Below are positions 4,542 to 56,349 of a stretch of DNA of 64,000 bases, in pieces (positions within the stretch are counted from its first letter, which is position 1; each line of letters opens with the position of its first letter). Below the pieces are notes generated by a model. The model did not search any database, was not told the origin of the DNA, and worked only from the letters and a program-made list of their open reading frames with translations. The stretch is from the NCBI GenBank assembly GCA_016794525.1, contig JAEUJY010000141.1:124001-188000 (forward strand), read 5' to 3'. The stretch is from Myxococcales bacterium. GTDB lineage: Bacteria > Myxococcota_A > Polyangia > Haliangiales > Haliangiaceae. A program made the position numbers and the translations under genes.

Positions 4542-4676
4542 ACGGACGACGAGGACCGGGACGGCCGATCCCTCACCGTCACGCGTCGACGGCGCGGCCG
4601 GCCTCACCGGGCCGCGGCGAACTGTCGCCGCAGAACGCTGGCGCCCGACGCCGGCGTGATGTAGTTAGCCGTCGTG

Positions 4677-6748: not shown

Positions 6749-6813
6749 TCGCAGCCCGCCGCCAACCGCGTCGCCGCCCTGGCGGGATCACCGGGTCGGA
6801 GGTCGCGCGCGTG

Positions 6814-11728: not shown

Positions 11729-11802
11729 CGCGCCCCGGTTCAGCAAGAGCCAGGCCACGGCGCCTGCCGCGCGCTGGCGCAGGAGGTGCAGCAGCGCGGC
11801 GC

Positions 11803-13295: not shown

Positions 13296-13303
13296 AGACC
13301 CCC

Positions 13304-28555: not shown

Positions 28556-29046
28556 AGGCTGTCTCCGATCGTCCGGATCAGCTCCAGCGAGACGGTGTGG
28601 TCGAACGCCGCCGCCGCGCCGGTGCCGCTGCCGGCGCCGTTGGCGTTGTCGTCGCTCCAGGCGATCTCGACGCGGATCTTGATCAGGTCGGGGCTGACCG
28701 CGGTCAGCTCGGTGACGATGACCCGCCGCCGGAACGTCGTGCCGGTCGGCCCGGCCAGCGTGTCCAGGTTGGCGTCGATCGGCAGCGTCGTGGTGTTGAA
28801 CGCCGCCAGCAGGCGCTGGACCGGCAGCGAGCGCAGGTCCTCGAGGGTCTGCTGCGCGGCCGCGACCGCGTCGCCGGCGTCGCCGGTGCGCTCGTTGCTC
28901 TTGATGGTGGCGATGTGCAGCGACATCAGCCCGGTCAGGCCGACCACGGTCACCGCCAGCGTCACCAGCAGCTCGATCAGCGTGAAGCCGCGCTGGTGGC
29001 GGCGACCCCGACGGCGCGGCGCGGCGGTCACGGCGACTCCGCTCAC
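28552..29046 (-). CDS. Minor pilin, PilV-like
   Basis: A 164-residue protein with prepilin signature QRGFTLIELLVTLAVTVVGL and the GLTGLMSLHIATIKSNE stretch found in PilV-type minor pilins. GTG start; a second GTG a few codons in is possible. It follows the PilY1 gene with essentially no gap. Confidence 0.85.
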   Translation of the reverse strand: MSGVAVTAAPRRRGRRHQRGFTLIELLVTLAVTVVGLTGLMSLHIATIKSNERTGDAGDAVAAAQQTLEDLRSLPVQRLLAAFNTTTLPIDANLDTLAGPTGTTFRRRVIVTELTAVSPDLIKIRVEIAWSDDNANGAGSGTGAAAAFDHTVSLELIRTIGDSL

Positions 29047-29047
29047 C

Positions 29048-32656: not shown

Positions 32657-33303
32657 GGTCCCCCGGGCGAGTAGGTCGCGACGTCGGTCGAGATCACGGT
32701 GGTCAGGCAGTCGTTGCGGCCGGCGCCGTCCTCGGCCATGCCCTTCTGTCCGTAGCTCGGACAGGGCCGACCGAGGCCGGTCACGGCGTCGGCCTGGACG
32801 TGCCAGTCGACCTGGGCGGTGGCCCCGTTGGGGCCGTGGCCGGTCGCGCGGATGACGACGATCTTGTCGGTGTCGTTGCCGGCGGCGAAGCCGGCGTCCT
32901 CGACGTTGTTGAGGATCTCGACCTCGTACCAGGCGTTCATGTCGGTCGAGAACAGGTTGCCAGGTTGGCCGGGCCGGGCGCCGTTGCCGACGATGCCGGT
33001 GGGCTTCTGCGGGTTGACGTTGTTGGGCTCGACCAAGGTCGAGTAGTAGCTGCCGGCGACGATGTTCTTGCGCAGGTAGTCGGCGCCGGCGGCCGCGCCC
33101 GACTCGGCGATGTACAGCGCCACCGACTTCGATCGGTCCTGGCCGACGGCGGTGATGCCGCCCTGGATCGACATCACGGTGATCGACGCCAGCGTGACCA
33201 GCCCGGTCAGGGCGATCATCGCGACCAGCATGGTGCTGCCGCGACGATGGCGATCATGCGCGGGCCGACGTGGAAGGACGATGACGTTTGGGGAGTACCG
33301 CAT
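32653..33303 (-). CDS. Minor pilin, PilX-like
   Basis: A 216-residue protein with N-terminal RRGSTMLVAMIALTGLVTLAS, the PilX_N type hydrophobic start lacking a standard GFTLIE motif, then YIAESGAAAGADYL as in PilX proteins. First gene of the five-gene operon PilX-PilY1-PilV-PilW-FimT/GspH. An in-frame extension to 33453 has no pilin features and was not used. Confidence 0.8.
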   Translation of the reverse strand: MRYSPNVIVLPRRPAHDRHRRGSTMLVAMIALTGLVTLASITVMSIQGGITAVGQDRSKSVALYIAESGAAAGADYLRKNIVAGSYYSTLVEPNNVNPQKPTGIVGNGARPGQPGNLFSTDMNAWYEVEILNNVEDAGFAAGNDTDKIVVIRATGHGPNGATAQVDWHVQADAVTGLGRPCPSYGQKGMAEDGAGRNDCLTTVISTDVATYSPGGP

Positions 33304-33556: not shown

Positions 33557-35221
33557 CTACTTGGCCGGCTTGCCGTCAGCGTCGAGCACGATCAAGCCGC
33601 CGGCGCCGAGCGCCTGATCGGCCACCAGCTTGTCGAGCGCCTCGCGCAGCGTGAGCTGCTTGCCGCCGACCTCGAGCGGGCGGTCGCTGGCGCCGTCGCG
33701 GACGATCACCGGGGTCTTGCCGTCGCCGACCACCAGGTAGACCGCCTTGCCGTCGTCGAGGTGCTTGGCCGCGGCCTTGGCCACGGCGGCGGCGTCGACC
33801 GCCTCGACCTTGCCGACGTAGCTCGACCAGTAGTCGAGCGGCAGGCCGAAGTACACCAGCGCGCGGAACATGCCGAGCGACGCGCCCGCGGTGGCGAACC
33901 GGCTGGGCAGGCCGAGGATCGCGCCGGCCTTCTCGCGGGTCAGCTCCTCGTCGGTCGGCGGCCGCTGCCCCGACTTCAGCGCGCGCAGCTCGCGCACCAT
34001 CTCGATCAGCGTCTGGTAGGTGGCGTCGCTGCGCACCGACGTGCCGGCGGTCATGACGCCGTAGTCGCGGCTGTAGTTGATGCCGCCGCGCGCGCCGTAC
34101 GAGTAGCCCTTGTCCTCGCGCAGGTTCATGTTGAGGCGGCTGGTGAAGCCGCCGCCGAAGATCGACGACATCACCGAGGTCGCGAAGAAGTCGGGCGCGG
34201 TGCGGCGCGGCCCGAAGTGCGAGAACCCGACCTGCGACTGCGCCGCGCCGGGCATGTCGACGAAGACGATCCGCGCGCCGATCGACTTGGGCGCCGGCAG
34301 CTTCTTGCGGGCCGGGGCCTTGCCCTTCCAGCCGGCCAGCGCCGGCGCGGCGAACCGCGCGCGCACGTCGTCCGCGGTGAGATCACCGACGACGAACAGC
34401 CGCGCGCCGCCGGGCTTGAGGTACTTCTGGTGGTGGGCCTTGCAGTCGTCGATCGTGATCGCCGCCAGCGACGCCTCGGTGACGATGCGCCCCGACGGGT
34501 GACCGGCGCCGAACAGCACCGGGCCGGCGACCCGGCTGGCGACCGCCTCGGGCGAGCCCTTGGCCTGCTTGAGGCCCTCGAGCCGCCGCTTGATGACCCG
34601 GGCGAACTCGTCGGCGCGGAAGCCCGGCGTGCGCAGCGTGTCGGCGAACAGCGCGAAGGTGCTGTCGAGGTGCTTGGTCAGCGACGACAGCGCGACGCCC
34701 TGCGAGTCGTTGCCGGCGTACGAGCTGATGCTCGACGCGGTGTCGGCCAGCGCCTCGGCCAGCTGGATCTTGTCGAGCGCGGCGGTGCCGTCGGACAGGA
34801 GGCCCATGCACACCGACGCCAGGCCCTCCTTGCCGACCGGATCGTTCTCGCTGCCGCCGTCGAACGTCAGGTCCATGCTGACGATCGGCAGCGTGTGCTG
34901 CTCGACCAGGTAGACCTGGACGCCGCTGGGCAGCTTGAAGGTCTGCATCGACGGCAGCCGGAACGGCCGCGGCGGGCCGGGCGGCGGCTGGGTGGCCCGG
35001 AACGGCTCGTCGGGGAACACCAGCGCCTGCGGCTGGGCGGTCTGGGTGGGGAACGCCGGCGGCGGGGGCATGGGCGGCTCCGGATCGACCGGCGGCGGTC
35101 GCGGGGGTTCGGGTTGCGCGACCGGCGGCGGGGTGGTCGCCTTGGTCGGCGGCGTCGGGCAGCAGGCGCCGAGCGGCGACGCGATCGCGATGGCGGTGAC
35201 GAGGCTGGCGAGACGCTTCAC
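33557..35221 (-). CDS. M16-family peptidase homologue, catalytically inactive subunit
   Basis: A 554-residue lipoprotein-like product (signal ending LGACC, then a Pro-rich linker of about 65 residues). Two M16 domains follow. The zinc motif HxxEH is missing: the equivalent helix reads GKEGLASVCMGLLSDG. Residues typical of the non-catalytic partner are kept (LREDKGYSYGARG in the second domain). GTG start overlaps the stop of the active M16 gene, so the pair probably forms a heterodimer in the periplasm. Confidence 0.86.
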   Translation of the reverse strand: MKRLASLVTAIAIASPLGACCPTPPTKATTPPPVAQPEPPRPPPVDPEPPMPPPPAFPTQTAQPQALVFPDEPFRATQPPPGPPRPFRLPSMQTFKLPSGVQVYLVEQHTLPIVSMDLTFDGGSENDPVGKEGLASVCMGLLSDGTAALDKIQLAEALADTASSISSYAGNDSQGVALSSLTKHLDSTFALFADTLRTPGFRADEFARVIKRRLEGLKQAKGSPEAVASRVAGPVLFGAGHPSGRIVTEASLAAITIDDCKAHHQKYLKPGGARLFVVGDLTADDVRARFAAPALAGWKGKAPARKKLPAPKSIGARIVFVDMPGAAQSQVGFSHFGPRRTAPDFFATSVMSSIFGGGFTSRLNMNLREDKGYSYGARGGINYSRDYGVMTAGTSVRSDATYQTLIEMVRELRALKSGQRPPTDEELTREKAGAILGLPSRFATAGASLGMFRALVYFGLPLDYWSSYVGKVEAVDAAAVAKAAAKHLDDGKAVYLVVGDGKTPVIVRDGASDRPLEVGGKQLTLREALDKLVADQALGAGGLIVLDADGKPAK

Positions 35222-43271: not shown

Positions 43272-44003
43272 GTGGCGCTCGCGCTGGTGGCGGCGTGTCG
43301 TTCGCCGCTGGCCGAGGTCGACCAGATCTACTACCGCGGCCCCGGGCCGCGGGTGCTGTGCGCGGCGTCGATCGACCGCGCGGTGCACGAGGACCAGGCC
43401 AGCATCGACGGCGCGCTCGACCGCGCCCGCGACGAGGGCGTCGTGGTCCAGCTCTACGCGCACGCGCCGGGGCGGCTGGTCGACCCGGCGCGGATCGAGG
43501 CGATCGCCGCCGGCGCCGCGCGGCGCGGCCTGGCGAGCGTGACCTACGCCGAGCTGGCCGACGCCCCGCCCGCGCGCGCCGGCCTCGCGCTCAGCTTCGA
43601 CGACGACGACGTGGCCGCGTGGCTGGGGCTGGCGGACATGCTCGACCGCTACCAGCTCCGGGTGACGTTCTTCGTGACCCGGTTCCAGGAGCTCGACGCG
43701 ACCGCGCGCGCCGGGCTCGCCGAGCTGGCCCGGCGGGGGCACGACGTCGAGGCCCACGGCGTCCACCACCTGCGCGCCCCCGAGGCGGTCCAGGAGGCCG
43801 GGCTCGACGCCTACGTCCGCGACGAGGTCCTGCCGAGCGTGGCCGCGCTGACGGCGGCCGGCTTCGCGCCGCGGGTGTTCGCGTACCCGTACGGCGCGCG
43901 CACCAGCACGATCGATCGCGCGCTCCTCGCGCACGTGGCGCTGGTGCGCTCGGTCGCGTACCCGACCGACGGGCTGCTGGTGTCGGACCCCTGCCCCGAG
44001 TAG
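43272..44003 (+). CDS. Polysaccharide deacetylase (NodB-type) lipoprotein
   Basis: A 243-residue NodB-homology protein. LALSFDDDDVAAW carries the catalytic aspartates, RRGHDVEAHGVHHL the metal histidines, and RVFAYPYGART the later motif. A lipobox (LVAAC) sits only nine residues after the GTG, short for a lipoprotein signal, so the true start may be upstream although no standard start codon was found there in frame. Function: removal of acetyl groups from envelope or external polysaccharide. Confidence 0.8.
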   Translation: MALALVAACRSPLAEVDQIYYRGPGPRVLCAASIDRAVHEDQASIDGALDRARDEGVVVQLYAHAPGRLVDPARIEAIAAGAARRGLASVTYAELADAPPARAGLALSFDDDDVAAWLGLADMLDRYQLRVTFFVTRFQELDATARAGLAELARRGHDVEAHGVHHLRAPEAVQEAGLDAYVRDEVLPSVAALTAAGFAPRVFAYPYGARTSTIDRALLAHVALVRSVAYPTDGLLVSDPCPE

Positions 44004-44134
44004 CGCCACCACGCGCGCGGGCGATGGGACCCGCGGGTCCCGCCTGGCCGCCGGGCGCCGGCGCCCACGGATCCCGGTGGCAGAGCGTGCTCGCGCACTT
44101 GCGCGCGCACGCGGCGTGCAAGACCGCCCGGCCC

Positions 44135-45343
44135 ATGCGCACCACCCCGCTCGCCGCCGTGCTGCTGTTCGCCGCCTGCCACGGAGACCCGGTCGACCCC
44201 GGCGTCGACGCCGCCCCGCCCGACCCCGACGCCGCCGTCGCCATCGACGCCGCCCCGCCGATCGACGCCCCGGCGGCGGCCTGCGACGTGAGCGGGCTGG
44301 CGACCGTGCCGACCGTGCCAGTCACCAGCGCGCTCATCCGCCCCAGCGACACCGCGCGCGGCGGCGAGACGATCGACGACGTGGTCCAGATGCAGATGAA
44401 GCGCCACGTCGTGAGCGCGCCGACCAACGCCGCCGATCGCAACGGGCAGCTGTTCGTGTGGATGTCGGGCTCGGGCGCCGAGCCCGGGAACTACGACACG
44501 ATCGTCGCCCTCGGCACCGCCGCCGGCTACGTGACGGTGTCCTTGGCCTACGACAACGAGACCTCGGTCGGCGATCGCTGCGGCGTGCCGATGGATCCGG
44601 TGTGCGGCGTGGCCAACCCGGCCTGCGACGAGGGCGTTCGCCAGGAGATGATCTACGGCAGCGCGGTGCACGACTCGCCGTGCGTCGACGTCAGCCCGGC
44701 CAACGCGATCGAGCACCGCATCCTGCGGCTGGTGCAGTACCTGGCGCAGAACGTCCCGCAGAGCGGCGCCAGCAGCTTCCTCACCGCCGGCGGCACCGGG
44801 CTCGACTGGTCGAAGATCGCCGTCGGCGGCTGGTCCCAGGGCGGCGGCCACGCCGGCATGCTGGCGCGCGATCACCTGGTGGCGCGCGCGATCTACGCGT
44901 CGAAGGGCGCCGACTCGACGCTGTGCCCGCTGACCGTCAGCGACCCGGCGATGTGCGACCTCGACGGCGACGGCATGCTGACGCCGGGCAACGACGACGA
45001 GCTGCTGGTGCCGACGCCGTGGTCGACGACGCCGCGGATGACGCCGGGCAGCCGGCAGTTCGGCGCGGTCCACGGCCTCGAGGGCGCGTGGAACTACAGC
45101 CCCGAGGTGTTCGCGCTGTACGGCATGGGCGCGAAGGGCACCGCGGTCGACCTCGACGTCGTCGGCGGCGACTACGCGGCGTACACCTGCCGCCACACCT
45201 TCGTCACCCGCGCGACGCCGGCGTGCGGCCCAACCGACTACCACAAGTCGATGGCGCTCGACGCGTGCCTGGCGCGCACGCCCGGCGGGACGCCGGTGCT
45301 CGCGCCGTTCTACTGGTACGCGCTGAAGCTGCCGGTGCCGTGA
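44135..45343 (+). CDS. Secreted alpha/beta-hydrolase-like lipoprotein
   Basis: A 402-residue lipoprotein (lipobox FAAC), with a linker of DAAPPDPDAA type. The catalytic domain has the nucleophile elbow GGWSQGGGHAGM and an oxyanion-side strand RNGQLFVWMSGSG. Late histidines, such as in YHKSMALDACL, could complete a triad. It resembles BPSS1187-like esterase/depolymerase proteins. Eight or more cysteines suggest disulfides. Confidence 0.72.
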   Translation: MRTTPLAAVLLFAACHGDPVDPGVDAAPPDPDAAVAIDAAPPIDAPAAACDVSGLATVPTVPVTSALIRPSDTARGGETIDDVVQMQMKRHVVSAPTNAADRNGQLFVWMSGSGAEPGNYDTIVALGTAAGYVTVSLAYDNETSVGDRCGVPMDPVCGVANPACDEGVRQEMIYGSAVHDSPCVDVSPANAIEHRILRLVQYLAQNVPQSGASSFLTAGGTGLDWSKIAVGGWSQGGGHAGMLARDHLVARAIYASKGADSTLCPLTVSDPAMCDLDGDGMLTPGNDDELLVPTPWSTTPRMTPGSRQFGAVHGLEGAWNYSPEVFALYGMGAKGTAVDLDVVGGDYAAYTCRHTFVTRATPACGPTDYHKSMALDACLARTPGGTPVLAPFYWYALKLPVP

Positions 45344-45350
45344 TCGGCGA

Positions 45351-45887
45351 TCACGCCCGGGCGTTGGCGACGACGGTCTCGACGTGATCCTGGATCGCCT
45401 CGAACGTGGCCTGGGCCTCGTCCTGCGACAGCTCGAGGCCGGTCGCGATGACGCCCAGCACGTCGAGCTCGTGGTCGTGCAGCTCGAGGTCGCACAGCAC
45501 CACCAGGCACGCCAGCGTGTACGCCAGCCGCCGCGCCGCGGGATCGAGCACGCCGGCGATCGCCACCAGCCGGGCCTCGCGGCCGTCGGCGTCGTAGGCG
45601 GCGATGAAGCGCTCGATGACGTGCTCGACGGTCTCCTCGGGCAGCTCGGTGCCGAGCCAGCCCGACAGGGTCGCGCCGAGGTTGTCGGCCTCGGCGTCGT
45701 TGATCTCGCCGTCGGCGGCGGCCGCGAGGAACGCGACCTCGAGCATGGCGTAGAGCCGGGTCACCTCGGCCAGCTGCGCGGGGCCCAGGTCGGCCTCGTG
45801 GCTGAGCAGCGCCGCGGCGGCGCCGATCGCGCCCGGCAGCCCGACCCGGGCGCTGATCTCGTGGCGGGTGGTGTCGTTGATCGTCAT
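45351..45887 (-). CDS. TerB-like acidic helical protein
   Basis: A 178-residue cytoplasmic protein. MLEVAFLAAAADGEINDAEADNLGATL and LCDLELHDHELDVLGVIATGLELSQDEA match the TerB pattern of acidic, metal-binding helices found in tellurite-resistance and stress proteins. It converges on the hydrolase gene with a 7-bp gap. Precise role unknown. Confidence 0.75.
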   Translation of the reverse strand: MTINDTTRHEISARVGLPGAIGAAAALLSHEADLGPAQLAEVTRLYAMLEVAFLAAAADGEINDAEADNLGATLSGWLGTELPEETVEHVIERFIAAYDADGREARLVAIAGVLDPAARRLAYTLACLVVLCDLELHDHELDVLGVIATGLELSQDEAQATFEAIQDHVETVVANARA

Positions 45888-45924
45888 CGCGAGACTCCTC
45901 GGGCCGCTGCGGCCGCCGGGCACC

Positions 45925-46788
45925 TTATCGCGATTCCCACGCCGTCTGTGGCACCGCCTCGAGCGTGAAGTACGCGAAGCCGGCGACCGCGAGCCGTCCG
46001 TAGGCGGGATCGGCCGCGAGGTCGGCCGCGAACCGCGCCTCGACGCCACCCAGCCCGAACACCGCGAGGCTGGCCGCCATGTCGACCTCGCCGGTGGCGT
46101 AGAAGATCGGCCACACCTCGACGCCGGCCTCGGCGAACCACGCGTAGCGATCGCGCAGCGGCCCGCCCTTGGCGTGGACGTGGGCCCAGGCGTCGCGCGG
46201 CGACGCGACGCTGTAGTCGAGGTGCACGAAGTCGAGGCGGGCGGCCAGCTCGGCGGCCTCGGCCGCGGTCGGGTACCCGAGGTACGCGCCGATGCGCAGG
46301 GCGTGCCCCGGCGCGAGCGCCGATCCCTGGGCGGCGAGCGCGTCGAGCAGCGCCTCCAGCTCGGCCAGCGCGCCGGCGCGATCGGGCTGGTTCCAGTACT
46401 CGACCTCGGTGACCGCGCCGTCGATCCACGTGCCGGGGTGCTCGGCCACCACCCGCGCCAGCGCGTCGACGCGGTCGATCCCCGCCACCGGCACGATCAC
46501 CTGGCCGCCGGCGCGGTGCACCTCGTCGATCCACCCGGCGAGGCGGGTGCGCCCATCGGCATCGACCAGCAGCGGCGAAAGTTGATAGGGCGCGACGCCG
46601 CGCAGCTGGCCGCGGCCGATGCGGTCGATCAGCGCGGCGCGGGCGGCGGGCGAGGCGATCAGCGCCGCGCCGTCGCGGACGTACGCGGTGCGCGCGACCG
46701 CCGCCGTGGGCGTCGGCGTCGCGACCGGGGCGCAACGACACGCGAAGGCCAGGACCGCGATCGTGAGGAGCCAGCGCCGCGTAGGCAT
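45925..46788 (-). CDS. Putative extracellular TIM-barrel (glycoside-hydrolase-like) protein
   Basis: A 287-residue exported protein (signal near LLTIAVLAFACRCAP; Cys17 or Cys19 may be lipidated). The domain reads as alternating strands and helices: GVAPYQLSPLLVDADG, GQVIVPVAGIDRVDALARV, TWIDGAVTEVEYWNQPD, LRIGAYLGYP, FVHLDYSVAS, VEVWPIFYATGEVDM, VAGFAYFTLEAV. Acidic residues at strand ends (VEYWNQ, LDYS) are those expected of a barrel glycosidase. Family not recognised. It diverges from the exopolysaccharide synthase operon. Confidence 0.65.
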   Translation of the reverse strand: MPTRRWLLTIAVLAFACRCAPVATPTPTAAVARTAYVRDGAALIASPAARAALIDRIGRGQLRGVAPYQLSPLLVDADGRTRLAGWIDEVHRAGGQVIVPVAGIDRVDALARVVAEHPGTWIDGAVTEVEYWNQPDRAGALAELEALLDALAAQGSALAPGHALRIGAYLGYPTAAEAAELAARLDFVHLDYSVASPRDAWAHVHAKGGPLRDRYAWFAEAGVEVWPIFYATGEVDMAASLAVFGLGGVEARFAADLAADPAYGRLAVAGFAYFTLEAVPQTAWESR

Positions 46789-46905
46789 CAGTGGTTGGGC
46801 AGCGTACCAGGCCCACCAACCCCGTGGGGGTGAGATCGGGTAGCGGGCGGGGCTCAACCTTTGGCGCAGCCGGTCGAGCCAGGGAGGTGCCGGGCAACGG
46901 CGCCG

Positions 46906-47967
46906 ATGATGACTCGAGCTGCTCTCACCGCCGTGGCCGTGCTGGCCGCCGTCCGCGGCGCCCGCGCCGACGCGACGTGCGATCGGCTGACCGCCGAGGC
47001 CCGCGCCGAGGCGGCGCTGCTCTACGCGCCGCGGCTCGAGGTCGAGGGCGCGCGCGCGCCGGTGGCCGCCACCGCCGGCGACCCCGCCGCGGTCGGCGGT
47101 GGCCTGCAGGCGCGGGTGGCGCTCGCGGTGTCGCCGATCGACATGCTGCGCGGCCGCGCGATCGAGCGGGTCGCGAGCGCCGAGTGCGTGCGCGAGGCGC
47201 TGGCCGAGACGATCGAGCGCGTGCTGGCGATCGGCCCACGCGCCGGCGAGCGCGCGGCGATCGCCAGCGAGCTCAGTTACCTCGCGGCCCACGCGCCCGA
47301 GGTCGCGGCGCTGGTCGACGAGGCCCGGGCCCGGCTCGCCAGCGGCCGCGGCACCGCGCTCGAGCTCGACGAGCTACGCCAGCGCCAGCGCACGCTGGCC
47401 CGACGCGCGGCCGATCTCGAACACCAGCGGGCGCTGCTCGACGACGAGCCGGCCGCCGACGCGCCGGCGTCGCTGACGGCGCTGGCCGACGGCTACCGGC
47501 GCGCGGTGGCGCAGGTCGATCGGCGCCGCGCCGACACCCGCGCGCTGAGCGCCTGGCAGCTCGAGGTCCGCGGCGGCGCCGCCGGCGGCGAGCGCCTCGA
47601 CTGGTTCGTCGTGGCCGAGGTCGGCTACTCGCTGGGCCGGCCGTGGCAGCGGGCCGCCGAGCGCCGCCTGGCCCGGGCCCGCGCCGGCGAGCTGACCGAC
47701 GACGTCCGCAGCCCGGTGGCGCGGCTGGCCCGGCTGCGCCAGGTGCTGACGGCCAGCGCGACCACGCTGGCCGCCGAGCTGCGCGAGCTCGACGCCGAGC
47801 TGGCCGACCTCGCCGCGCAGGAGGCGCAGCTGGCCGGCCTCGACGGCGACGCCGCCCGCGGGCTGCGCGCCCGCATCACGCTCACCCGCCTCGAGCTGGA
47901 GGCGCGCCGCGCCGGGCTCGAGGTGCTCGAACGCCAACACCGCACGCTGTCGGAAGGTGCCCCATGA
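46906..47967 (+). CDS. Exported coiled-coil protein of the exopolysaccharide operon
   Basis: A 353-residue product with a signal peptide (ALTAVAVLAAVRGARA) and a mature part rich in heptads (LDELRQRQRTLARRAADLEHQRALL, LAAELRELDAELADLAAQEAQL). The overall pattern of two long helical hairpins around a short strand region (VAEVGYSLGRPW) resembles TolC-type outer-membrane efflux proteins. The stop overlaps the start of the membrane-fusion gene (ATGA). Probable role: outer part of a polymer export channel. Confidence 0.68.
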   Translation: MMTRAALTAVAVLAAVRGARADATCDRLTAEARAEAALLYAPRLEVEGARAPVAATAGDPAAVGGGLQARVALAVSPIDMLRGRAIERVASAECVREALAETIERVLAIGPRAGERAAIASELSYLAAHAPEVAALVDEARARLASGRGTALELDELRQRQRTLARRAADLEHQRALLDDEPAADAPASLTALADGYRRAVAQVDRRRADTRALSAWQLEVRGGAAGGERLDWFVVAEVGYSLGRPWQRAAERRLARARAGELTDDVRSPVARLARLRQVLTASATTLAAELRELDAELADLAAQEAQLAGLDGDAARGLRARITLTRLELEARRAGLEVLERQHRTLSEGAP

Positions 47968-49142
47968 CCCAGGCGCTCCGCGTCGTCACCGAGGCCGACG
48001 AGGCCGCCGCCGCGCTCGAACGCGCGCGTGCCATCCCGGCGCTGCCGGAGGTGGTCGCCCCGCGGCAGCCGATCACCGCCGAGATCGCGCCGCTGCCGGG
48101 CGTCGACGCCGGGCCGGCCACGTCGTGGACCGGCCGGCTGTTCGCGCTGTCGCTCTTGGTCGCGACCGTCGGCGGCCTCGGCTGGCTGGGCCGCGAGGTC
48201 TACTTCGTCGTCACCGACTCGTGGATCGCGCCGCTGCACCTGTCGCCCGACAGCGACGGCGTGGCCGCGCTGCGCATGCAGCGCCAGCGCCAGCTGGCCG
48301 AGCTGGCCCGCCTCGACGCCGAGGTCACGCGCATCGACGGCGAGCTGGCGGCGATCGACGCCGCGGTGGTCCGCCTCGACAAGCTGCGCGACCACGCGAC
48401 GACGACGCGGCGCTGGCAGACCGAGGCCAGCGCCCGCGCCGCCAGCGGGCTCGACACCGCGACCGACCTGCTGCGCCGCCAGCGCGCGCTGCTGGTGCAG
48501 CTGGGCCAGCGCCAGACCGAGCTGGTGGCCCGGGCCCGGACCGATCTCGCCGCCGGCATGATCGAGCGGACCGCGCTCGACCGCGAGGAGCAGGTGCGCG
48601 ATCAGCTCGCGCTCGAGCTGACCGAGCTCGACCGCCAGCTGGCCGAGGCCGGCACCCGCAGCGCCGAGACCCGCTCGGCCTTGCGCGCGCTGCGCGGCGA
48701 GGACCGCGACGCCGGCCGGACGATGCCCGAGCTGGCCGCCGGCGAGGAGCACACCGCGCGCGTCGAGCTGGAGATCGAGCGGCTGCGCGCCGAGGCGGTC
48801 GGCCAGCGCGCGCTGCGAGCGGTGGCGATCGACAGCGCCGCGACCCAGCGCGAGCTGCTGGCCGAGCTCGAGGCGCGGCCGTTGTACCGCGCGATGACCA
48901 AGGCCACCGACATCGCGTTCGTGCCGTACGACCAGCTGAGCGGCGTGACGCCGGGCGCGCGGATCATGGACTGCACGTGGGGCGTGTTCCGCTGTCGCCA
49001 GGTCGGCACGATCACCGAGCTGGTGCCCGGCGAGGTCGTGACCCAGGACCCGTGGGGCAAGCTCGCCCGCGGCCAGTACGTCGTGCTGCACCTGACCGAC
49101 GCCGCGGCGGTGCGCGAACGCGTGCTGCGCGTGCGTCGCTAG
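47964..49142 (+). CDS. HlyD/Alg44-like membrane-fusion protein
   Basis: A 392-residue protein. About 50 cytoplasmic residues precede one membrane helix (LFALSLLVATVGGLGWLG). A long periplasmic coiled-coil hairpin follows, and a C-terminal beta domain (IAFVPYDQLSGVTPGARIMDCTWGVF, VGTITELVPGEVV) like HlyD. The cytoplasmic part is too short for a PilZ domain, so c-di-GMP control through it is unlikely. Placed between an exported coiled-coil protein and a glycosyltransferase, it should bridge synthase and outer membrane. Confidence 0.8.
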   Translation: MTQALRVVTEADEAAAALERARAIPALPEVVAPRQPITAEIAPLPGVDAGPATSWTGRLFALSLLVATVGGLGWLGREVYFVVTDSWIAPLHLSPDSDGVAALRMQRQRQLAELARLDAEVTRIDGELAAIDAAVVRLDKLRDHATTTRRWQTEASARAASGLDTATDLLRRQRALLVQLGQRQTELVARARTDLAAGMIERTALDREEQVRDQLALELTELDRQLAEAGTRSAETRSALRALRGEDRDAGRTMPELAAGEEHTARVELEIERLRAEAVGQRALRAVAIDSAATQRELLAELEARPLYRAMTKATDIAFVPYDQLSGVTPGARIMDCTWGVFRCRQVGTITELVPGEVVTQDPWGKLARGQYVVLHLTDAAAVRERVLRVRR

Positions 49143-49157
49143 CCCGCGGAGCCCGCC

Positions 49158-50939
49158 ATGGAGTCGATCTTCTGGAGCCTGGGCCGGGCCGACGGCGTCG
49201 AGATCCTCGGCGGGCTGTGGCGTCCGTTCCTGATCGGCCTGGTGCTGTACTACTCCGGCTACCTCGGCGTGTGGCTGCAGACGCTGGCGCGGGCCGCCGG
49301 GCTCACCCGGTTCCGGCCGCTGGCCGCGGCCGAGGCGGTCGACGTGCTGGTGGTCATCCCGACCCTGCTGAAGACCCGCGACGACGTCGACAGCCTGCGC
49401 GACGCCGCGGCCACCGTCGTCGACAACCGCTACCCGGGCCGGGTCGTGCTGGTGATGGCGATCGACGGCAGCGACGATCGCCCGGCGCTGGTGGCCGAGC
49501 TCGAGGGCTGGGCCCGCGGCTACCGCGGCGCCGCCACCGTGCTGGTCGCCAAGGTGCCGCAGCGCGCCGGCAAGGGCGTCGCGGTGGCCGCCGGGCTGGC
49601 CCGCGCCGAGGCCGCGGTCGCCGGCGGCGAGGTGCCCTGCCTGCCGCCGGTGTTCTTCAACATGGACGCCGACGGCGTGCTCGGGCCGCGCGCGCTCGAG
49701 CGGATGGTCGCGACGCTGGTGCGGCCGGGCTGGCTGACCCGGCAGCGGCCGATGATCGTCGCGTCGAACGTGCTGGTGCGCCGCGCCCACTACTGGGCCG
49801 GGTGGCGCGGCTTCTTCACGATGCGCTACCAGCTCGCGCTGCAGGTGGCGCGCGAGTACATGACGTCGATCAGCATCACCCGCAACAACAACGGCCTCCT
49901 GCCGGTGACCGGCGTGTCGGGCGCGCTGTACGCCACCTGGACCACGCTGCACCAGCACCAGGCGCGCCACGCCGCGTACATGCAGGCGCTCCGCTGGCGC
50001 GACGTCGTCGCGTGGTGGCTGGGCGCGCGCCCGCCGCGGTTCGCCGACTTCCGCGGCGAGCCCAACGTCCACGCCACCGCCGGCCCCGGCGACGACACCT
50101 GGCTGGCGTGGCTGGCGATGTCGGCGCGCTGGCGCGACGGCCAGATCGATCTCGAGCTGCCGCGCTCGCCGCTGCACGCGCTGGCGCGGCTGGTGCGCTC
50201 GTGGTTCGTGCGGCCGATCGCGTACGACCCGCTGGCCCGCGTGTACACCGCGACGCCGACCGCGATCCGCGCGCTGTTCAAGCAGCGGGTGCGGTGGAAC
50301 TCGTCGCGGCCGTGGCTCTTGCACCGCTTCGGTCGGATGCCGTACTTCGCCTGGGATCTGGGCGCGTGGGTGATGGCCGACCTGCTGCTGCTGCTGTTCA
50401 TCCACGCGACGATCCTGGTCGGCGTGCTGCTGTGGCCGCTGGCCGATCGGCCGGCGACCTGGCTGGCGCTCCTGGTGCTGGGCTTCCTGTTCAACCTGGT
50501 CGTGCGCGGCGCGGCGACGCTGCTGGCGATGATCCAGGACCACGACCTGCGCGGCCACTGGCACAAGCTGCTGGCGTTGCCGCTGGCCGGGCCGTTCCAT
50601 TTCGTCTTCAACATCGCGACGACGACGGTCGGGCTGATCCAGGACGTCTTCGGCTTCGGCGTCAACACCCACTTCGCGCCCGAGACCACGCTGGCGGCGT
50701 CGGGCGTGGGCCGGCCGGCGCTCGCCTACCGGGTCACCCGCTGCGCGCGGCTGATCGGGCGCGCGCTGCGCCACGGCGACGTCGCCCCTGGACGCTTCTG
50801 GTTCGGCTGGCACGCCAGCGCGTGGACTGTCGACGGCTACGCCGGGTGGACCGATCGCCGGCGCTGGCGCGGCCGCGGCGGCGTGCTGCCGTCGCCCCGC
50901 GCGCGCCGCCGGACCCGCCCCGACCTCGCCGCCGGCTGA
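49158..50939 (+). CDS. Membrane-embedded family-2 glycosyltransferase (cellulose synthase/Alg8-like)
   Basis: A 593-residue processive-type GT2. One N-terminal membrane helix (about 22-44). Catalytic motifs: LVVIPTLLKTRDDV, MAIDGSDD, the DxD site FNMDADGVLG, GDDTWLAW (in place of the usual ED base region) and QRVRW. At least three C-terminal membrane helices (about 400-500) form the polymer channel. It follows the export genes by 15 bp. Product unknown; Alg8/cellulose-synthase resemblance points to a beta-linked polymer. Confidence 0.88.
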   Translation: MESIFWSLGRADGVEILGGLWRPFLIGLVLYYSGYLGVWLQTLARAAGLTRFRPLAAAEAVDVLVVIPTLLKTRDDVDSLRDAAATVVDNRYPGRVVLVMAIDGSDDRPALVAELEGWARGYRGAATVLVAKVPQRAGKGVAVAAGLARAEAAVAGGEVPCLPPVFFNMDADGVLGPRALERMVATLVRPGWLTRQRPMIVASNVLVRRAHYWAGWRGFFTMRYQLALQVAREYMTSISITRNNNGLLPVTGVSGALYATWTTLHQHQARHAAYMQALRWRDVVAWWLGARPPRFADFRGEPNVHATAGPGDDTWLAWLAMSARWRDGQIDLELPRSPLHALARLVRSWFVRPIAYDPLARVYTATPTAIRALFKQRVRWNSSRPWLLHRFGRMPYFAWDLGAWVMADLLLLLFIHATILVGVLLWPLADRPATWLALLVLGFLFNLVVRGAATLLAMIQDHDLRGHWHKLLALPLAGPFHFVFNIATTTVGLIQDVFGFGVNTHFAPETTLAASGVGRPALAYRVTRCARLIGRALRHGDVAPGRFWFGWHASAWTVDGYAGWTDRRRWRGRGGVLPSPRARRRTRPDLAAG

Positions 50940-50972
50940 CCGCCGCGCCGCGCCGTGCGGTAGGCTCGGCGG

Positions 50973-51758
50973 ATGCGACGCCGCGCGTGGATCCTGACGC
51001 TCCTGGCCAGCGTCGCGGCCTGCGGGCGCGCCCCGCGGCCGGCGACCACCGACGCGGCGCCCCCGGTCGACGCGGCGGCCAGCGACGCCGCGCCGCCGCG
51101 CGCGGTGCTGTTCGTCGGCAACAGCTACACGTACTACTTCGAGCTGCCGGTCGAGGTCGCCGCGCTGGCCGCGCCGGCCGCGCCGCTCACGACCACCAGC
51201 GTCACCGTCGGCGGCGCCGCGCTGCGCGACCACTGGAACGGCGCGGCCCGCGCGGCGATCGCCGCCGGCGGCCACGCGATCGTCGTGCTGCAGGGCCAGA
51301 GCCAGGAGCCGCTGCTCGACGCCGCGGGCTTCGCGACCCACGCCGACCTGCTGGCCGGCGCCGCGACCAGCGCCGGCGCCGAGGTGGTCTTCTACCAGAC
51401 CTGGGCCCGCCGGGCCGGCGACCCGTTCTACGCCGACCCGGCGTCGGGCGGCACGCCGGCGGCGATGCAGGACGGGCTCACCGCGGGCTACGCCGCCGCC
51501 GCGACGCGCACCCAGGCGCGGGTGGCCCCGGTCGGCGAGGCGCGGCGGCTGGCGCTGGCCGAGGCGCCCACCCTCGAGCTGTTCGATCCCGACGGCAGCC
51601 ACCCCAGCGCGGCGGGCGCGTACCTGGCCGCGGCGGTGCTGGTCGAGACGCTGAGCGGCCAGCCGCCGACCGACGCGCCCCGGCTCGAGCTCGACGCCGC
51701 GACCCGCGCCACCCTGCGCGACGTCGCGCACCGCGCGGTGCTCGCGGCCGCGCGGTGA
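50973..51758 (+). CDS. SGNH/GDSL-type hydrolase lipoprotein
   Basis: A 261-residue lipoprotein (VAAC) with linker DAAPPVDAAASDAAPP. Block I is VLFVGNSYTYYF (Ser nucleophile), VVLQGQSQEP is block III-like and FDPDGSHPSAAG supplies the catalytic Asp and His. Such proteins deacylate or acylate polysaccharides and may modify the polymer made by the upstream operon (34 bp apart). Confidence 0.85.
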   Translation: MRRRAWILTLLASVAACGRAPRPATTDAAPPVDAAASDAAPPRAVLFVGNSYTYYFELPVEVAALAAPAAPLTTTSVTVGGAALRDHWNGAARAAIAAGGHAIVVLQGQSQEPLLDAAGFATHADLLAGAATSAGAEVVFYQTWARRAGDPFYADPASGGTPAAMQDGLTAGYAAAATRTQARVAPVGEARRLALAEAPTLELFDPDGSHPSAAGAYLAAAVLVETLSGQPPTDAPRLELDAATRATLRDVAHRAVLAAAR

Positions 51759-51773
51759 TGTAGAACCCGCGCG

Positions 51774-52877
51774 ATGCAGGAACTCAAGGAGCGACTCGGC
51801 GAGCGCGGCGCCGCGTGGGTGGTGGGCAGCGGCGTGCTGGTGCTGGCGATGGTGATCGGCTGGATCGTCGGCGTGCTGATCCACCGCGCGCTGGCGGCCG
51901 CGGCGCGCCGCAGCGAGGCCACCTGGGACGACGCGCTGGTGACGCGGCTGCGCCGGCCGCTGGCGATCGTGCCGGCGGTGATGGCCGGCTGGCTGGCGCT
52001 GCCGGCGCTGCCGCTGACGCCGGCGGCGGCGCGCATCTCGGCCACCGGGCTCAACGTGCTGACCACGCTGGTCGTGATCTGGATGGCGTTCCGGTTCGTC
52101 GACGTGGCCCGGCTGACGCTGAGCAACCGATCGTGGGCCAAGGATCGCCCGGCGACGCTGTCGCTGCTGGCGATGGGCGCGCGCATCGCCAAGCTGCTGA
52201 TCGTCGTGTTCGCGGCGATCACCGCGCTCGCCGCGCTCGGGGTCCCGGTGGCCAGCCTCGTCGCCGGGCTCGGCATCGGCGGCCTGGCGGTGGCGCTGGC
52301 CGCGCAGAAGACGATCGCCAACCTGTTCGGCGCGCTGTCGATCGGCGTCGACCGGCCGTTCCGCGAGGGCGACTACGTCAAGGTCGGCGAGGTCGAGGGC
52401 ACCGTCGAGGCGATCGGCCTGCGCTCGACGCGGATCCGCACGGTGGCCCGGACGCTGGTGACGATCCCCAACGCCGACCTCGCCGACACCCGCTCGGAGT
52501 CGTTCGCGGCCTGCGATCGCTACCTGTTCGCGACCACGATCGGCGTGGTCTACGACACGCCGCCGGCGACGCTGCGCGCGCTGCTGGGCCAGATCGAGGC
52601 GCGGCTGCGGGCGATGCCGAAGGTGTGGACCGAGAAGCTGCGCGTGCAGTTCGCGGGGTTCGGCGCGTCGTCGCTCGACGTCCGGATCCAGGCGTGGTTC
52701 GTGACCGGCGAGTGGGAGGAGTTTCTGGCGCTGCGCCAGGAGGCGCTGTTCGCGATCATGGAGCTGTGCGCGGCGGCCGACGTGGCGATGGCGTTCCCCA
52801 CCCGCACCGTCCACGTGGTGCCGGCCGCGGCGCCAGCAGCGGCTGAACCGCGCGTGGGCGCCGTTACTCCCCTGTAA
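51774..52877 (+). CDS. MscS-family mechanosensitive channel
   Basis: A 367-residue inner-membrane protein with about five hydrophobic segments. The pore helix GIGGLAVALAAQKTIANLFG is followed by the beta domain (GVDRPFREGDYVKVGEVEGTVEAIGLRSTRIRT, VTIPNADLADT). Opens on membrane tension to release solutes. It starts 15 bp after the hydrolase gene. Confidence 0.92.
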   Translation: MQELKERLGERGAAWVVGSGVLVLAMVIGWIVGVLIHRALAAAARRSEATWDDALVTRLRRPLAIVPAVMAGWLALPALPLTPAAARISATGLNVLTTLVVIWMAFRFVDVARLTLSNRSWAKDRPATLSLLAMGARIAKLLIVVFAAITALAALGVPVASLVAGLGIGGLAVALAAQKTIANLFGALSIGVDRPFREGDYVKVGEVEGTVEAIGLRSTRIRTVARTLVTIPNADLADTRSESFAACDRYLFATTIGVVYDTPPATLRALLGQIEARLRAMPKVWTEKLRVQFAGFGASSLDVRIQAWFVTGEWEEFLALRQEALFAIMELCAAADVAMAFPTRTVHVVPAAAPAAAEPRVGAVTPL

Positions 52878-52940
52878 CAGCGCGGCACAACGGGCGGAAC
52901 GCCGTTGTCTTGCCGACGAAAAAGCCCGTAAGCTCGGGAG

Positions 52941-55553
52941 GTGACCTGGGTCGTACCCCTCAGCCTGGGCGGGCTGGCCATCGCGGTCATGGCGCTGTTC
53001 ACCATGCTCGGTGCGCGCAAGGCCCAGCGCGCCCAGGCCGCCGCGCCGGCCGCCGCGCCGCGCATCCTGATCCACGACATCAACGACGATCGTTGCACCG
53101 GCTGCGACGCCTGCGTCGCGGTGTGCCCGACCAACGTCCTCGACCTGGTCAACAACAAGAGCCGCGTGCTGCGGTTCCACGACTGCATCCAGTGCGAGGC
53201 GTGCATGTGGGCGTGCCCGACCGAGGCGCTGGTGATGTTCCCCGAGGGCAGCGAGCCGCAGCCGCTCAAGGTGCCCGAGCTCGACGACAGCTACCAGACC
53301 GGCGTGCCCGGCCAGTACCTGATCGGCGAGGTCGCGGGCAAGCCGCTGGTCAAGAACGCCGCCAACCTCGGCCGCGGCGTCATCGAGCACATGCTGCGCA
53401 CCGGGCTGCGGCCGCGCGGCCTGCCGGGCGGCGTCGACGTCGCGATCGTCGGCTCCGGCCCGGGCGGGCTGTCGGCGGCGCTGACCTGCATCCAGCGCGG
53501 CCTCAGCTACGTCCTGCTCGAGAAGGAGCAGGAGATCGCGTCGACGATCACCCGCTACCCCAAGGGCAAGCTGGTGATGGCGGAGCCCTACGACACCCGC
53601 AACCTGTCGCTCCTGCCGGTGTTCGACTCGAGCAAGGAGCAGCTGGTCGCGATCTGGCGCGAGCTGATCGAGCGCGCCGGCGTGACGATCAACCAGGGCG
53701 AGGCGGTCGAGTCGGTGCAGCGCCTCGGCGACGGCACGTTCGACGTGCGGACGACGGTCGCGCAGTACCGCGCGCAGCGGGTCATCCTGGCGACCGGCAC
53801 CCGCGGCAAGCCGCGCACGCTGCAGGTGCCCGGCGAGAACCTGCCCAAGGTGGCCAGCCTCCTCGAGGACCCCGACGACTGGCGCGGCAAGGACGTGCTG
53901 GTGGTCGGCGGCGGCGACTCGGCGGTCGAGGCCGCGGTGGCGCTGGCCGACGCCGGCGCCCGCGTGATCATCAGCTACCGCGGCAAGTCGTTCAACCGCG
54001 CCGCGCCGAAGAACCGGCAGACCATCGAGGGCTACGCCGCGCAGCAGCGGCTCAAGGCCAAGTACGGCTCGCAGGTGGTCGCGTTCGAGCCCGAGGCGGT
54101 GATCCTGCAGCTCGACGACGGCTCGCAGAAGCGCTACGCCAACCACGGCGCGTTCGTGCTGATCGGCGCCGACCCGCCGGTGACGTGGCTCGAGAAGCTG
54201 GGCGTGCGGTTCGTGCTGCGGCCGCACCAGTACTCGCTGGGCAAGTCCGACGACTTCCTGCGCCGGCTGCTGGGCGACGTCACCGATTGCCCCGAGGACG
54301 CGGCCCAGGCCGCGCAGGCGGTGACCGGCCGCGCCCAGGCGCCGTCGGCGCCGGCCGGCGACCGGCTGCCGTCGGAGGTCGAGCGCGCGCTGGCCGCGGT
54401 GTCGCTGCCCGACGCCGCCAGCGGCCCCAAGAAGTGGCTGCGCGCCGCGACCGGGCTGTTCGCCACCGGCAAGAAGGTCGAACAGCCGATCCCGCTGTCG
54501 GAGTTCGCCAAGCGCCAGCGCACCGGCGCCGCGGGCCGCCGCGACCAGCTGTCGGCCGGCGAGCGCACCCGCGTGCTGCGCATGCTGCGCGACGAGGGCG
54601 GCCGCCTGGCCGACGAGGAGTCGCGGGTGTCGTACGTCGACTTCGCCGCGATCCGCTCGGCGCCGCCGAGCCGCGACGACACCCCGCCGCCGCAGCCAGT
54701 GGCGCGCCCCCGGGCCAAGGCGCCGAGCGCGGCGCCGCCGGTCGACGACATCGTCGCCAAGCCGGCGGTGATCGTCGGGCTGGCCAAGGCCACCGCCGCC
54801 GGGCCGCGCAACCGCTCGGGCAAGGCCGACGAGATCGAGCTCGGGCCAGGCGTGCGGATGAAGCCGGGCAAGGCGCAGCGCGCCCCGGCGCCGGCTGCGG
54901 AGCCGCCGACCCGCCGCGCGCCGCCGACCCGGCCGCCGCCGGTGCAGTTCACCGAGGAGCCGACCCGGCAGGTCGACGCCGCGCCGCGCACGCTGCGCCG
55001 CAGCGCCGAGCGGCGGGCCGAGTTCGACCGCGAGGAGCCGACCCGCGCCGCCGACGTCGATCCCCGGCTGCTGGCCGCGTCGGGCGAAGACGCCACCCGC
55101 ATGGCCCACATCGATCCGCGCGCGATGATGCAGCACGAGGACGCCACCCGGCTGGCGCAGATCGACGCCCGCGCGCTGATGGCCTCGGGCGACGCCACCC
55201 GGATGTCGACGATCGATCCGCTGGCGCTGTTCGACGACGAGGCCACCCGCCACGACGGCGGCCACGATCCCGACGGGCTGTACTCGGGCGACAGCGCGAC
55301 CGGCTCGATCGACCTCGGCCCGCGCGATCAGTCGCGGCGCTACGCGCGGCTGCCCGACGAGGACGCCACCCGCATGAGCGACGTCGACGCGCTGGTGGCC
55401 AAGGAGCGCGAGCGGGCCCGGGCCGGCCGCCCGGCGCCGGCGCCGTCGCGCCCGCCGCCGCCGTCGCGGTCGTCGGTCCACGACGAGGCGACCCGCGCGG
55501 TCGACATCGGCCGCACCGGCAGCATCAGCGACGTCGACTGGGATCTGGATTGA
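52941..55553 (+). CDS. Ferredoxin-flavoprotein disulfide-reductase-like fusion with eight ATR/PTR tail repeats
   Basis: An 870-residue protein. Residues 2-24 are a membrane helix. Two [4Fe-4S] motifs follow (CTGCDACVAVCP and CIQCEACMWACP). Residues 163-450 are a two-dinucleotide-domain flavoprotein of the YpdA/thioredoxin-reductase type (FAD site IVGSGPGGLSAA, NAD(P) site VVGGGDSAVEA) without the redox CxxC. The long tail is disordered, and at about 671-855 carries eight repeats like EDATRMAHIDPRAMM. The Shine-Dalgarno GGGAG abuts the GTG start, so a slightly different start is possible. Likely a membrane-bound electron-transfer reductase with a phospho- or protein-binding tail. Confidence 0.85.
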   Translation: MTWVVPLSLGGLAIAVMALFTMLGARKAQRAQAAAPAAAPRILIHDINDDRCTGCDACVAVCPTNVLDLVNNKSRVLRFHDCIQCEACMWACPTEALVMFPEGSEPQPLKVPELDDSYQTGVPGQYLIGEVAGKPLVKNAANLGRGVIEHMLRTGLRPRGLPGGVDVAIVGSGPGGLSAALTCIQRGLSYVLLEKEQEIASTITRYPKGKLVMAEPYDTRNLSLLPVFDSSKEQLVAIWRELIERAGVTINQGEAVESVQRLGDGTFDVRTTVAQYRAQRVILATGTRGKPRTLQVPGENLPKVASLLEDPDDWRGKDVLVVGGGDSAVEAAVALADAGARVIISYRGKSFNRAAPKNRQTIEGYAAQQRLKAKYGSQVVAFEPEAVILQLDDGSQKRYANHGAFVLIGADPPVTWLEKLGVRFVLRPHQYSLGKSDDFLRRLLGDVTDCPEDAAQAAQAVTGRAQAPSAPAGDRLPSEVERALAAVSLPDAASGPKKWLRAATGLFATGKKVEQPIPLSEFAKRQRTGAAGRRDQLSAGERTRVLRMLRDEGGRLADEESRVSYVDFAAIRSAPPSRDDTPPPQPVARPRAKAPSAAPPVDDIVAKPAVIVGLAKATAAGPRNRSGKADEIELGPGVRMKPGKAQRAPAPAAEPPTRRAPPTRPPPVQFTEEPTRQVDAAPRTLRRSAERRAEFDREEPTRAADVDPRLLAASGEDATRMAHIDPRAMMQHEDATRLAQIDARALMASGDATRMSTIDPLALFDDEATRHDGGHDPDGLYSGDSATGSIDLGPRDQSRRYARLPDEDATRMSDVDALVAKERERARAGRPAPAPSRPPPPSRSSVHDEATRAVDIGRTGSISDVDWDLD

Positions 55554-55560
55554 GGCCCGG

Positions 55561-55776
55561 ATGAAGTTCCCGCTCACGCCCCAGCTGATCGACGAAGCGC
55601 GCCGCTACGAGCTGCGCTCGGCGTGCCAGCACTGCGTGTTCTGGCTGGCCGCGCGCGGCGCGTGCCTGCACGGCTGGCCCGACGAGGGCCAGCGGCGCTG
55701 GCCGCTCGACGCCCCCGACGCCAGCGGCGCGGCGCCGACCGACGCCGCGTTCTGCAAGGAGTTCGAGCTCGCGTGA
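55561..55776 (+). CDS. Small cysteine-rich protein coupled to the flavoprotein
   Basis: A 71-residue protein 7 bp after the flavoprotein gene. Four cysteines (CQHC, a third in ACLHGWP and a fourth in AFCKEFEL) look like a metal or Fe-S site. Aromatic residues (FWLAARG, RRWPLD) flank them. No named family was recognised. It may be an electron acceptor or regulator of its neighbour. Confidence 0.72.
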   Translation: MKFPLTPQLIDEARRYELRSACQHCVFWLAARGACLHGWPDEGQRRWPLDAPDASGAAPTDAAFCKEFELA

Positions 55777-55849
55777 GCCACTGCACGTCGGCAACTCGGC
55801 CAAGCTGATGCGCACGCGGCCGGCCTGGTGACCGCCGCGACACACATCG

Positions 55850-55950
55850 GCATTCGGACGAGCATCGGTCGACGCGGCGGGAGTCTCGCGTCGCGGGGGG
55901 AGGCTCGGCGGGGGCATGACCCCGCCGAGGGGGCTCGGCGACGAGCCCCC
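55850..55950 (-). repeat. Double-hairpin intergenic repeat, copy F (reverse orientation)
   Basis: Read on the minus strand: hairpin I at 55929-55950 has stem GGGGGCTCG and loop TCGC. Hairpin II at 55904-55929 has stem CTCGGCGGGG and loop TCATGC. The arm is close to copy E (CCGCGACGCGAGACTCCC, GATGCTCGTCCGAATGC). It directly follows the 55957 minus-strand gene. Confidence 0.78.
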
Positions 55951-55956
55951 TGGAAC

Positions 55957-56349
55957 TCAGTTGCCGCGGGGGGCGATCACCGCGTTGACCGCGCCGGTCG
56001 CGACCTGCGCCGCGTCGCGGGTGGTCGTGCGCGCGGCGCTGGCCGAGGTGCCGACGATCCGCTCGACCGAGCCGAGCAGGTCGGCGGCGGCGCCGTCGAG
56101 GCGCTGGGTCAGGCGGCGCGCGACCGTGAACGCGCTCTTGAGCAGCGCCTCGGTCGAGTCGATCACCGTGATCACGCCGCGCGCCAGCTCGGTGCGGACG
56201 TCGCCGCCGACGCCGAGCGCGGTGGCGGCGCCGATCTCGGCGGTGTCGATCGCCAGCGTCGCGATCGCCGGGATGACCCCGCGCGCGGCCTCGGCGTCGA
56301 CGGTGGTGCGGGAGAGCTTCGCGTCCTTGGTGTCGGTGGGCTTGTCCAT
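55957..56349 (-). CDS. Unknown phasin-like amphipathic protein
   Basis: A 130-residue protein of amphipathic helices (ALLKSAFTVARRLTQRLDGAAADLLGSVERIV) without signal peptide. The pattern resembles phasins or granule-coating proteins, but there is no clear family match. A double-hairpin repeat follows within 7 bp, and two 31-bp direct repeats lie upstream. Confidence 0.6.
   Translation of the reverse strand: MDKPTDTKDAKLSRTTVDAEAARGVIPAIATLAIDTAEIGAATALGVGGDVRTELARGVITVIDSTEALLKSAFTVARRLTQRLDGAAADLLGSVERIVGTSASAARTTTRDAAQVATGAVNAVIAPRGN

Follow-up and report, generated by a model that had tools for sequence, protein, structure and literature searches.

A three-gene operon of a soil myxobacterium that probably couples a polysaccharide synthase to a TolC-type conduit

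The stretch of DNA analyzed here (the window; 64,000 nucleotides of contig JAEUJY010000141.1, assembly GCA_016794525.1, from a Myxococcales bacterium of the family Haliangiaceae) contains three genes, A, B, and C, at positions 46906-50939. All lie on the forward strand, packed head to tail, at the coordinates given in a preliminary description of the window, whose observation of a three-gene set is confirmed. We estimate at roughly 0.7 the probability that this operon of a soil myxobacterium encodes a synthase-dependent exopolysaccharide system, in which an operon-encoded TolC-type conduit replaces the usual exit through a tetratricopeptide repeat (TPR) scaffold and a porin. The computed evidence consists of the fold and topology of A, the architecture of B, the catalytic motifs of C, the absence of a PilZ domain, and the linkage of the gene set across families.

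In the proposed mechanism, C, a family 2 glycosyltransferase (GT2) in the inner membrane, would processively polymerize a nucleotide sugar on the cytosolic side and push the growing chain across the membrane via its own helices. B, held in the membrane by a single helix, would surround the exit of C with its beta domain and extend a long hairpin across the periplasm. The tip of this hairpin would dock on A, a TolC-type barrel of reduced length in the outer membrane; the long hairpin and the short barrel would together span the periplasm. The three proteins, assembled in this way, would form a closed conduit through which the polymer leaves the cell without a TPR-plus-porin exit.

Conservation of the gene set and a second system

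A profile of C matched 2 of 282 genomes in a sample of the phylum, 2 of 30 in the family, and 14 of 317 in the class, the latter at 17 places. B is adjacent to C at all 17 loci and A at 16; the gene order is A-B-C at 15 loci and B-A-C at one (L093). Genome G479 has one B-C copy that lacks its own A; a complete A-B-C set lies about 4 kb away. Locus L088, which overlaps L087, was left out of this count, and L026, which ends inside B, is not counted. In the phylum sample, A was detected in 5 genomes and B in 7; short or partial matches account for the two additional Bs. In a class set of 306 genomes, A was found in 40 and B in 50; genome G521 contains all three genes and is missing from the lists of A and B places for this set. 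At 47 of the 49 A places, a full-length B lies on the same strand no more than 2.5 kb away. Conversely, 47 of 53 B places are paired with A by the same measure, counting places that are full-length or cut by a contig end and omitting short matches. The set is thus conserved together, and because it recurs in other genomes, its occurrence in the window exceeds chance.

The module can also be observed beyond the phylum. Plasmid NZ_AP023182.1 of Paraburkholderia sp. PGU19 carries, in a row on one strand, genes for B, A, a UDP-sugar dehydrogenase, a glycoside hydrolase of family 16 (GH16), and a GT2 protein matching Chitin_synth_2 (5.4e-14). This B is 24.7 % identical to the window B (E 9e-7), and the plasmid A matches the A profile with E 3.3e-24. 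A search of 72,556 plasmid records with C gave no match. In Caballeronia sp. SBC2, region 34397-34705 of NZ_CP049321.1 partially matches the Paraburkholderia B (47 % over 31 %) and is perhaps a remnant.

Genes related to polymer metabolism occur near several C loci of the class: GH16 in L087, L091, and L092, and heparinase II/III and UDPG (UDP-glucose) dehydrogenase in L087, with close homologs of the latter two in L091. Because UDP-sugar dehydrogenase, heparinase II/III-type lyase, and GH16 genes neighbor related loci, a beta-linked, uronate-containing polymer is suggested for at least some members. No GH16, heparinase, or UDP-sugar dehydrogenase gene was seen adjoining the window operon. L087 (G479) and L091 (G486) each contain two adjacent copies of A-B-C or B-C, and genes for GH16, heparinase II/III-like proteins, and UDP-sugar dehydrogenase are found nearby.

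A second system in the fetched loci combines B and A with a NodC-like GT2, a WbqC protein, and a PIG-L deacetylase. An example is provided by L028, where these three match their families at 3.4e-50 (TIGR04242), 4.8e-67, and 4.3e-18, respectively. Many A-B pairs of the class set belong to this second system, which is also present in the window genome (G000:C93). Both systems are accompanied in places by a conserved protein, X, for which no Pfam match was found and in which C48-N49, N70-P71-G72, and D145-N146 are invariant in 11 members. X is encoded near 6 of the 17 C loci and also next to many A-B pairs that belong to the second system; in two genomes it is fused to the C-terminus of A, at L064:9276-10925 (549 aa) and L065:3497-5131 (544 aa). 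The window genome has a single copy of X, which lies at its second system. By eye only, X has the look of a beta-sandwich lectin.

Many Kofleriaceae also have a solitary short B (~250-280 aa, with the hairpin tip missing) without A, as in L024:9492-10244 (contig G000:C133 of the window genome), L038, L067, and other loci. This short B may be a separate envelope protein. In L024, it is adjoined by a protein with a methyltransferase domain (PF13679).

Predicted properties of the three proteins

C matches the Pfam GT2 family PF13641 at 1.2e-6, above the curated cut-off. Its nearest NCBIfam models are PgaC/IcaA (1.6e-7), HpnB (1.7e-6), and NodC (4.6e-4); no cellulose-synthase model is among its NCBIfam matches, and the earlier assignment of C as cellulose-synthase/Alg8-like is unsupported or overstated. 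In an alignment of 17 C sequences, where L063 and the second L087 copy have truncated starts, the invariant positions include D103, D170 and D172 (DxD), D312/D313 (DD), and Q376-R-x-R-W380. Hydrophobic windows cover residues 19-34 and 409-491. The QRxRW motif and several C-terminal membrane helices are typical of processive GT2 enzymes; the motifs and hydrophobic windows of C fit this pattern, and C is a putative processive membrane synthase.

An alternative is that C is non-processive and produces a glycolipid or a small glycoside, which A and B would export in the manner of an efflux pump. The strong divergence of C, seen in a Pfam match of only 1.2e-6, the presence of the hopanoid-associated HpnB among its nearest models, and the resemblance of A and B to efflux parts (the outer-membrane factor and EmrA fold matches described below) all fit this explanation. 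We nevertheless consider it unlikely: C retains QRxRW and the C-terminal membrane helices, polymer-cutting neighbors occur at related loci, and no pump gene was recognized among the genes listed for the C loci, although these lists lacked gene-by-gene annotation.

A was assigned from its predicted structure and from its relatives. An AlphaFold model based on a 3-row alignment (predicted local distance difference test, pLDDT, 78.9; predicted template-modeling score, pTM, 0.68) shows a helix, two strands, helices, two strands, and helices, in the same order as TolC. The topology of outer-membrane factors (OMFs), in which a unit of paired beta strands and long helices occurs twice, was found in A by AlphaFold, Foldseek, and VIA. 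All 38 PDB chains retrieved by Foldseek at E<=0.001 are OMFs of the TolC/OprM type, the best being VceC (4.0e-9). VIA scores reach Z 14.6 against OMFs (CusC/TolC) and 7.7 for the first non-OMF row; the superposition on CusC has a root-mean-square deviation of 8.9 A over 326 aligned residues. The window A alone gave nothing informative against Pfam and NCBIfam. Among 25 aligned relatives (the alignment omits the A rows of L030, L036, and L064 and the truncated ones of L092 and L063), 8 match OEP (PF02321) at E<=1, the best at 1.6e-4, the window A itself being unmatched. At 353 residues, A is shorter than the 428-residue TolC chain. The models thus describe A as a reduced TolC-type OMF, and the TolC-like nature ascribed to the first protein in the preliminary description is upheld. 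That description had named two outcomes as counting against it, a first protein unrelated to outer-membrane channels and a set not conserved together; neither was observed.

The AlphaFold model of B (pLDDT 78.5, pTM 0.51) contains a helix (55-85), a strand, a helix (98-196), a turn, helices (202-304), and a beta domain (316-391). These correspond to a single transmembrane helix (55-85), a ~100-residue helical hairpin (98-304), and a C-terminal beta domain (316-391). Both the secondary structure of the model and the fold match to EmrA show the architecture of an adaptor: N-terminal membrane anchor, hairpin, and beta domain. Foldseek places EmrA at the top (1.3e-6), with MacA and HlyD lower in the list. 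The single window B gave nothing informative against Pfam and NCBIfam, and none of 26 aligned B relatives (the L066 B was left out) has an Alg44 or PilZ family match in Pfam. The earlier label of an Alg44/HlyD-like fusion protein is not supported at the level of families, with Alg44, HlyD, and PilZ matches in 0 of 26 relatives; only the architecture and the fold match to EmrA/HlyD speak for it. Two cysteines of the beta domain, Cys337 and Cys344, are invariant in this alignment. Of the 26 relatives, 23 keep the hairpin tip region, which mostly reads ~xAGLI[SD][KR] but varies in several rows; it is gapped in the remaining 3, which are the short Bs, none with an adjoining A. Adaptors carry a known RLS tip motif, according to the excerpted text of PMC8277102, and the tip of B may be its equivalent and dock on A.

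Several results weigh against a TolC-type export route for C. (i) Profile searches of the PDB found no OMF relative by sequence for A (25 rows), coiled-coil noise only for B (26 rows), and no matching chain for C (17 rows); because C has no PDB relative by profile, its proposed processivity rests on motifs. (ii) Foldseek TM-scores of A are only 0.33-0.49, and because of these low values the claim for A is limited to topology and does not extend to exact shape. (iii) In the Foldseek list of B, EmrA is followed by the unrelated FtsEX-EnvC (5.3e-4); in VIA, B scores about as high against unrelated coiled coils (12.4) as against HlyD (12.6); and no HlyD/MFP or other adaptor family is matched by any of the 26 B relatives in Pfam at E<=1. 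(iv) At six of the 53 B places in the class set, no A on the same strand lies within 2.5 kb; one of these places is at a contig end.

Another possible scenario is an envelope tether or signaling complex, with A and B as coiled-coil scaffolds and C glycosylating an envelope acceptor. A and B are indeed mostly helical, and the B model has middling matches to unrelated coiled coils. The four beta strands of A, its specific OMF match, and the repeated pairing of A and B with two different GT2 types make this scenario very unlikely.

The preliminary description stated that both the transferase and the fusion protein lack PilZ, and Pfam indeed detects this domain in 0 of 17 C and 0 of 26 B relatives. 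The PilZ-motif pattern RxxxR...[DN]x[SA]xxG is absent from the window A, B, and C and has no common position among the C rows; its scattered occurrences, in 2 of the 17 C rows and in part of the A and B rows, were rejected. Residues 501-570 of C form its best-conserved segment (mean 0.70 vs 0.58-0.66 in the glycosyltransferase core), with a net charge of about +5, many Trp and Phe residues, and no Pfam family match. The lack of PilZ cannot by itself serve as a distinguishing novelty, since BgsA is already PilZ-free and binds c-di-GMP (cyclic di-GMP), as described in the excerpts of PMC5567048 and PMC9495663. Because BgsA binds c-di-GMP without PilZ (PMC5567048, in excerpt), the missing domain does not imply missing c-di-GMP control. 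A true alginate- or cellulose-type system (Alg8-Alg44 or BcsA-BcsB) with diverged parts, which would have the same broad layout of synthase, periplasmic partner, and exit, is the least probable of the alternatives in view of the absent PilZ, the TolC-type exit, the nearest C models (PgaC/HpnB/NodC, not cellulose synthase), and the absence of BCSC_C (the BcsC C-terminal porin) from the window genome, where other porin families were not searched.

Operon layout and neighboring genes

Table 1. Features of the A-B-C operon and its flanks (window coordinates)
Feature	Position	Strand	Description
Gene A	46906-47967	+	353 aa, N-terminal signal-like stretch; predicted reduced TolC-type outer-membrane factor
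Gene B	47964-49142	+	392 aa; periplasmic-adaptor-like protein
Hairpin tip of B, LAAGMIERT	48546-48572	+	proposed docking site for A
Gene C	49158-50939	+	593 aa; membrane GT2, putative processive polysaccharide synthase
QRVRW motif of C	50283-50297	+	Q376, R377, R379, W380 invariant, 17 rows
C-terminal region of C, residues 501-570	50658-50867	+	conserved, basic, aromatic-rich; position where BcsA would carry PilZ
Gene D, SGNH-like, lipoprotein-like start	50973-51758	+	weak DUF4886/GDSL matches; 33 bp past C
Gene E, MscS-type channel	51774-52877	+	PF00924 1.1e-18
Divergent exported protein, 287 aa	45925-46788	-

Genes A and B overlap by 4 bp, and the gaps are 15 bp for B-C, 33 bp for C-D, and 15 bp for D-E; 117 bp separate the divergent gene from the start of A. 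The frames of A, B, and C were also chosen by a codon-usage gene caller, which places the start of A 27 bases further in; the caller was trained on six window genes including A, B, and C, and the agreement is partly circular. A promoter scan found no sigma-70-like promoter, and a terminator scan found a single terminator-like site, inside C, which equals the chance expectation. An Rfam search of 44000-56000 gave no match. The assembly of the window genome (G000) comprises 9.8 Mb in 177 contigs.

D resembles SGNH hydrolases weakly (DUF4886 at 0.0039 and GDSL_2 at 0.037, both below cut-off) and, by eye, retains FVGNSYTYY and DGSHPS. A search of the remaining fetched C loci for D homologs (E<=1e-3) found none. 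D is probably not a core part of the set, and its proposed role as an acylation enzyme of the system loses support, D not being recurrent beside C. The divergent gene, whose product the preliminary description called a TIM-barrel protein, has no Pfam or NCBIfam match; in L025 and L026, a homolog is found in the same divergent position. Another family is found beside 4 of the 17 C loci (L083, L084, L085, and L063). A comparison of the window divergent gene with the L083 group did not show them to be one family (hhalign probability 1.1 %).

Elsewhere in the window, we can observe three further features. Downstream, 52941-55553 encodes a fusion of 4Fe-4S and flavin adenine dinucleotide (FAD)/pyridine-nucleotide reductase domains with a long tail of DEATR-type repeats. 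The region 26787-33231 includes several type IV pilin-like proteins and a large exported protein (1202 aa) that is PilY1-like by position only. At 4674-14593, inspection by eye suggests a respiratory cluster: its products include multiheme-like proteins with CxxCH motifs and a protein that resembles molybdopterin oxidoreductases and begins with a Tat-like stretch.

Comparison with known systems

Passage of synthase-made polymers over the periplasm and the outer membrane is known mainly from TPR-plus-porin systems, and well-studied myxobacterial exopolysaccharides use the Wzx/Wzy route. A recurrent family of PilZ-free synthases is now added to the myxobacteria. With channel, adaptor, and synthase encoded together and with A and B associated with two synthase types, a TolC-type route can be tested directly, also in a betaproteobacterial host. 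No description of the A-B-C operon was found in the open-access literature searched. A broader proposal, to which we give even odds, is that TolC-type tripartite exporters with a GT2 synthase where the pump would otherwise stand constitute a separate class of polysaccharide secretion. Under this proposal, the dedicated short A and the B with its ~100-residue hairpin would be inherited together as a module whose synthase partner is exchanged (the C type or the NodC type) across Myxococcota and into Burkholderiales. Region 501-570 of C would act as a new element, independent of PilZ, in regulation or in guiding the polymer, and X would be a fourth, periplasmic or surface part.

The type 1 secretion systems and EmrAB-TolC pumps share with A-B-C the architecture of an OMF and a hairpin adaptor; in A-B-C, however, the inner-membrane part is a glycosyltransferase and there is no ATP-binding cassette (ABC) or major facilitator superfamily (MFS) transporter. 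Canonical synthase-dependent systems have a TPR scaffold, an outer-membrane pore, and c-di-GMP control, and a survey lists five polymers made in this way (PMC7112194, in the excerpted part). Like A-B-C, the alginate, poly-N-acetylglucosamine (PNAG), cellulose, and Pel systems described there have an inner-membrane synthase, a periplasmic partner, and an outer-membrane exit in one operon; they differ in their TPR/pore exit and c-di-GMP control (PMC7112194), whereas A-B-C has a TolC-type exit and no PilZ.

A closer similarity is found in the bgsBA system for mixed-linkage beta-glucan in Sinorhizobium/Rhizobium, where a PilZ-free GT2 is encoded beside a partner with a HlyD domain. BgsA, in contrast to C, is CESA/CelA-like; it binds c-di-GMP via its own tail, and no linked outer-membrane channel is named for the system in the excerpts of the two papers (PMC5567048, PMC9495663).

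The nearest precedent of the operon is the cyanobacterial cellulose exporter XcsAB-TolC of Thermosynechococcus, proposed to be tripartite, with a GT2 synthase, a HlyD-like adaptor, and a TolC-like channel. According to the excerpted text of PMC12430437, this exporter was proposed from scattered genes and lacks validation, and the unlinked genes raise questions. XcsA has PilZ and the xcs genes are dispersed (PMC12430437, same excerpt), whereas A, B, and C form one operon, A is dedicated and reduced, and C is without PilZ. What sets the operon apart from this precedent are the linkage, the absence of PilZ, and an A+B module common to two synthases.

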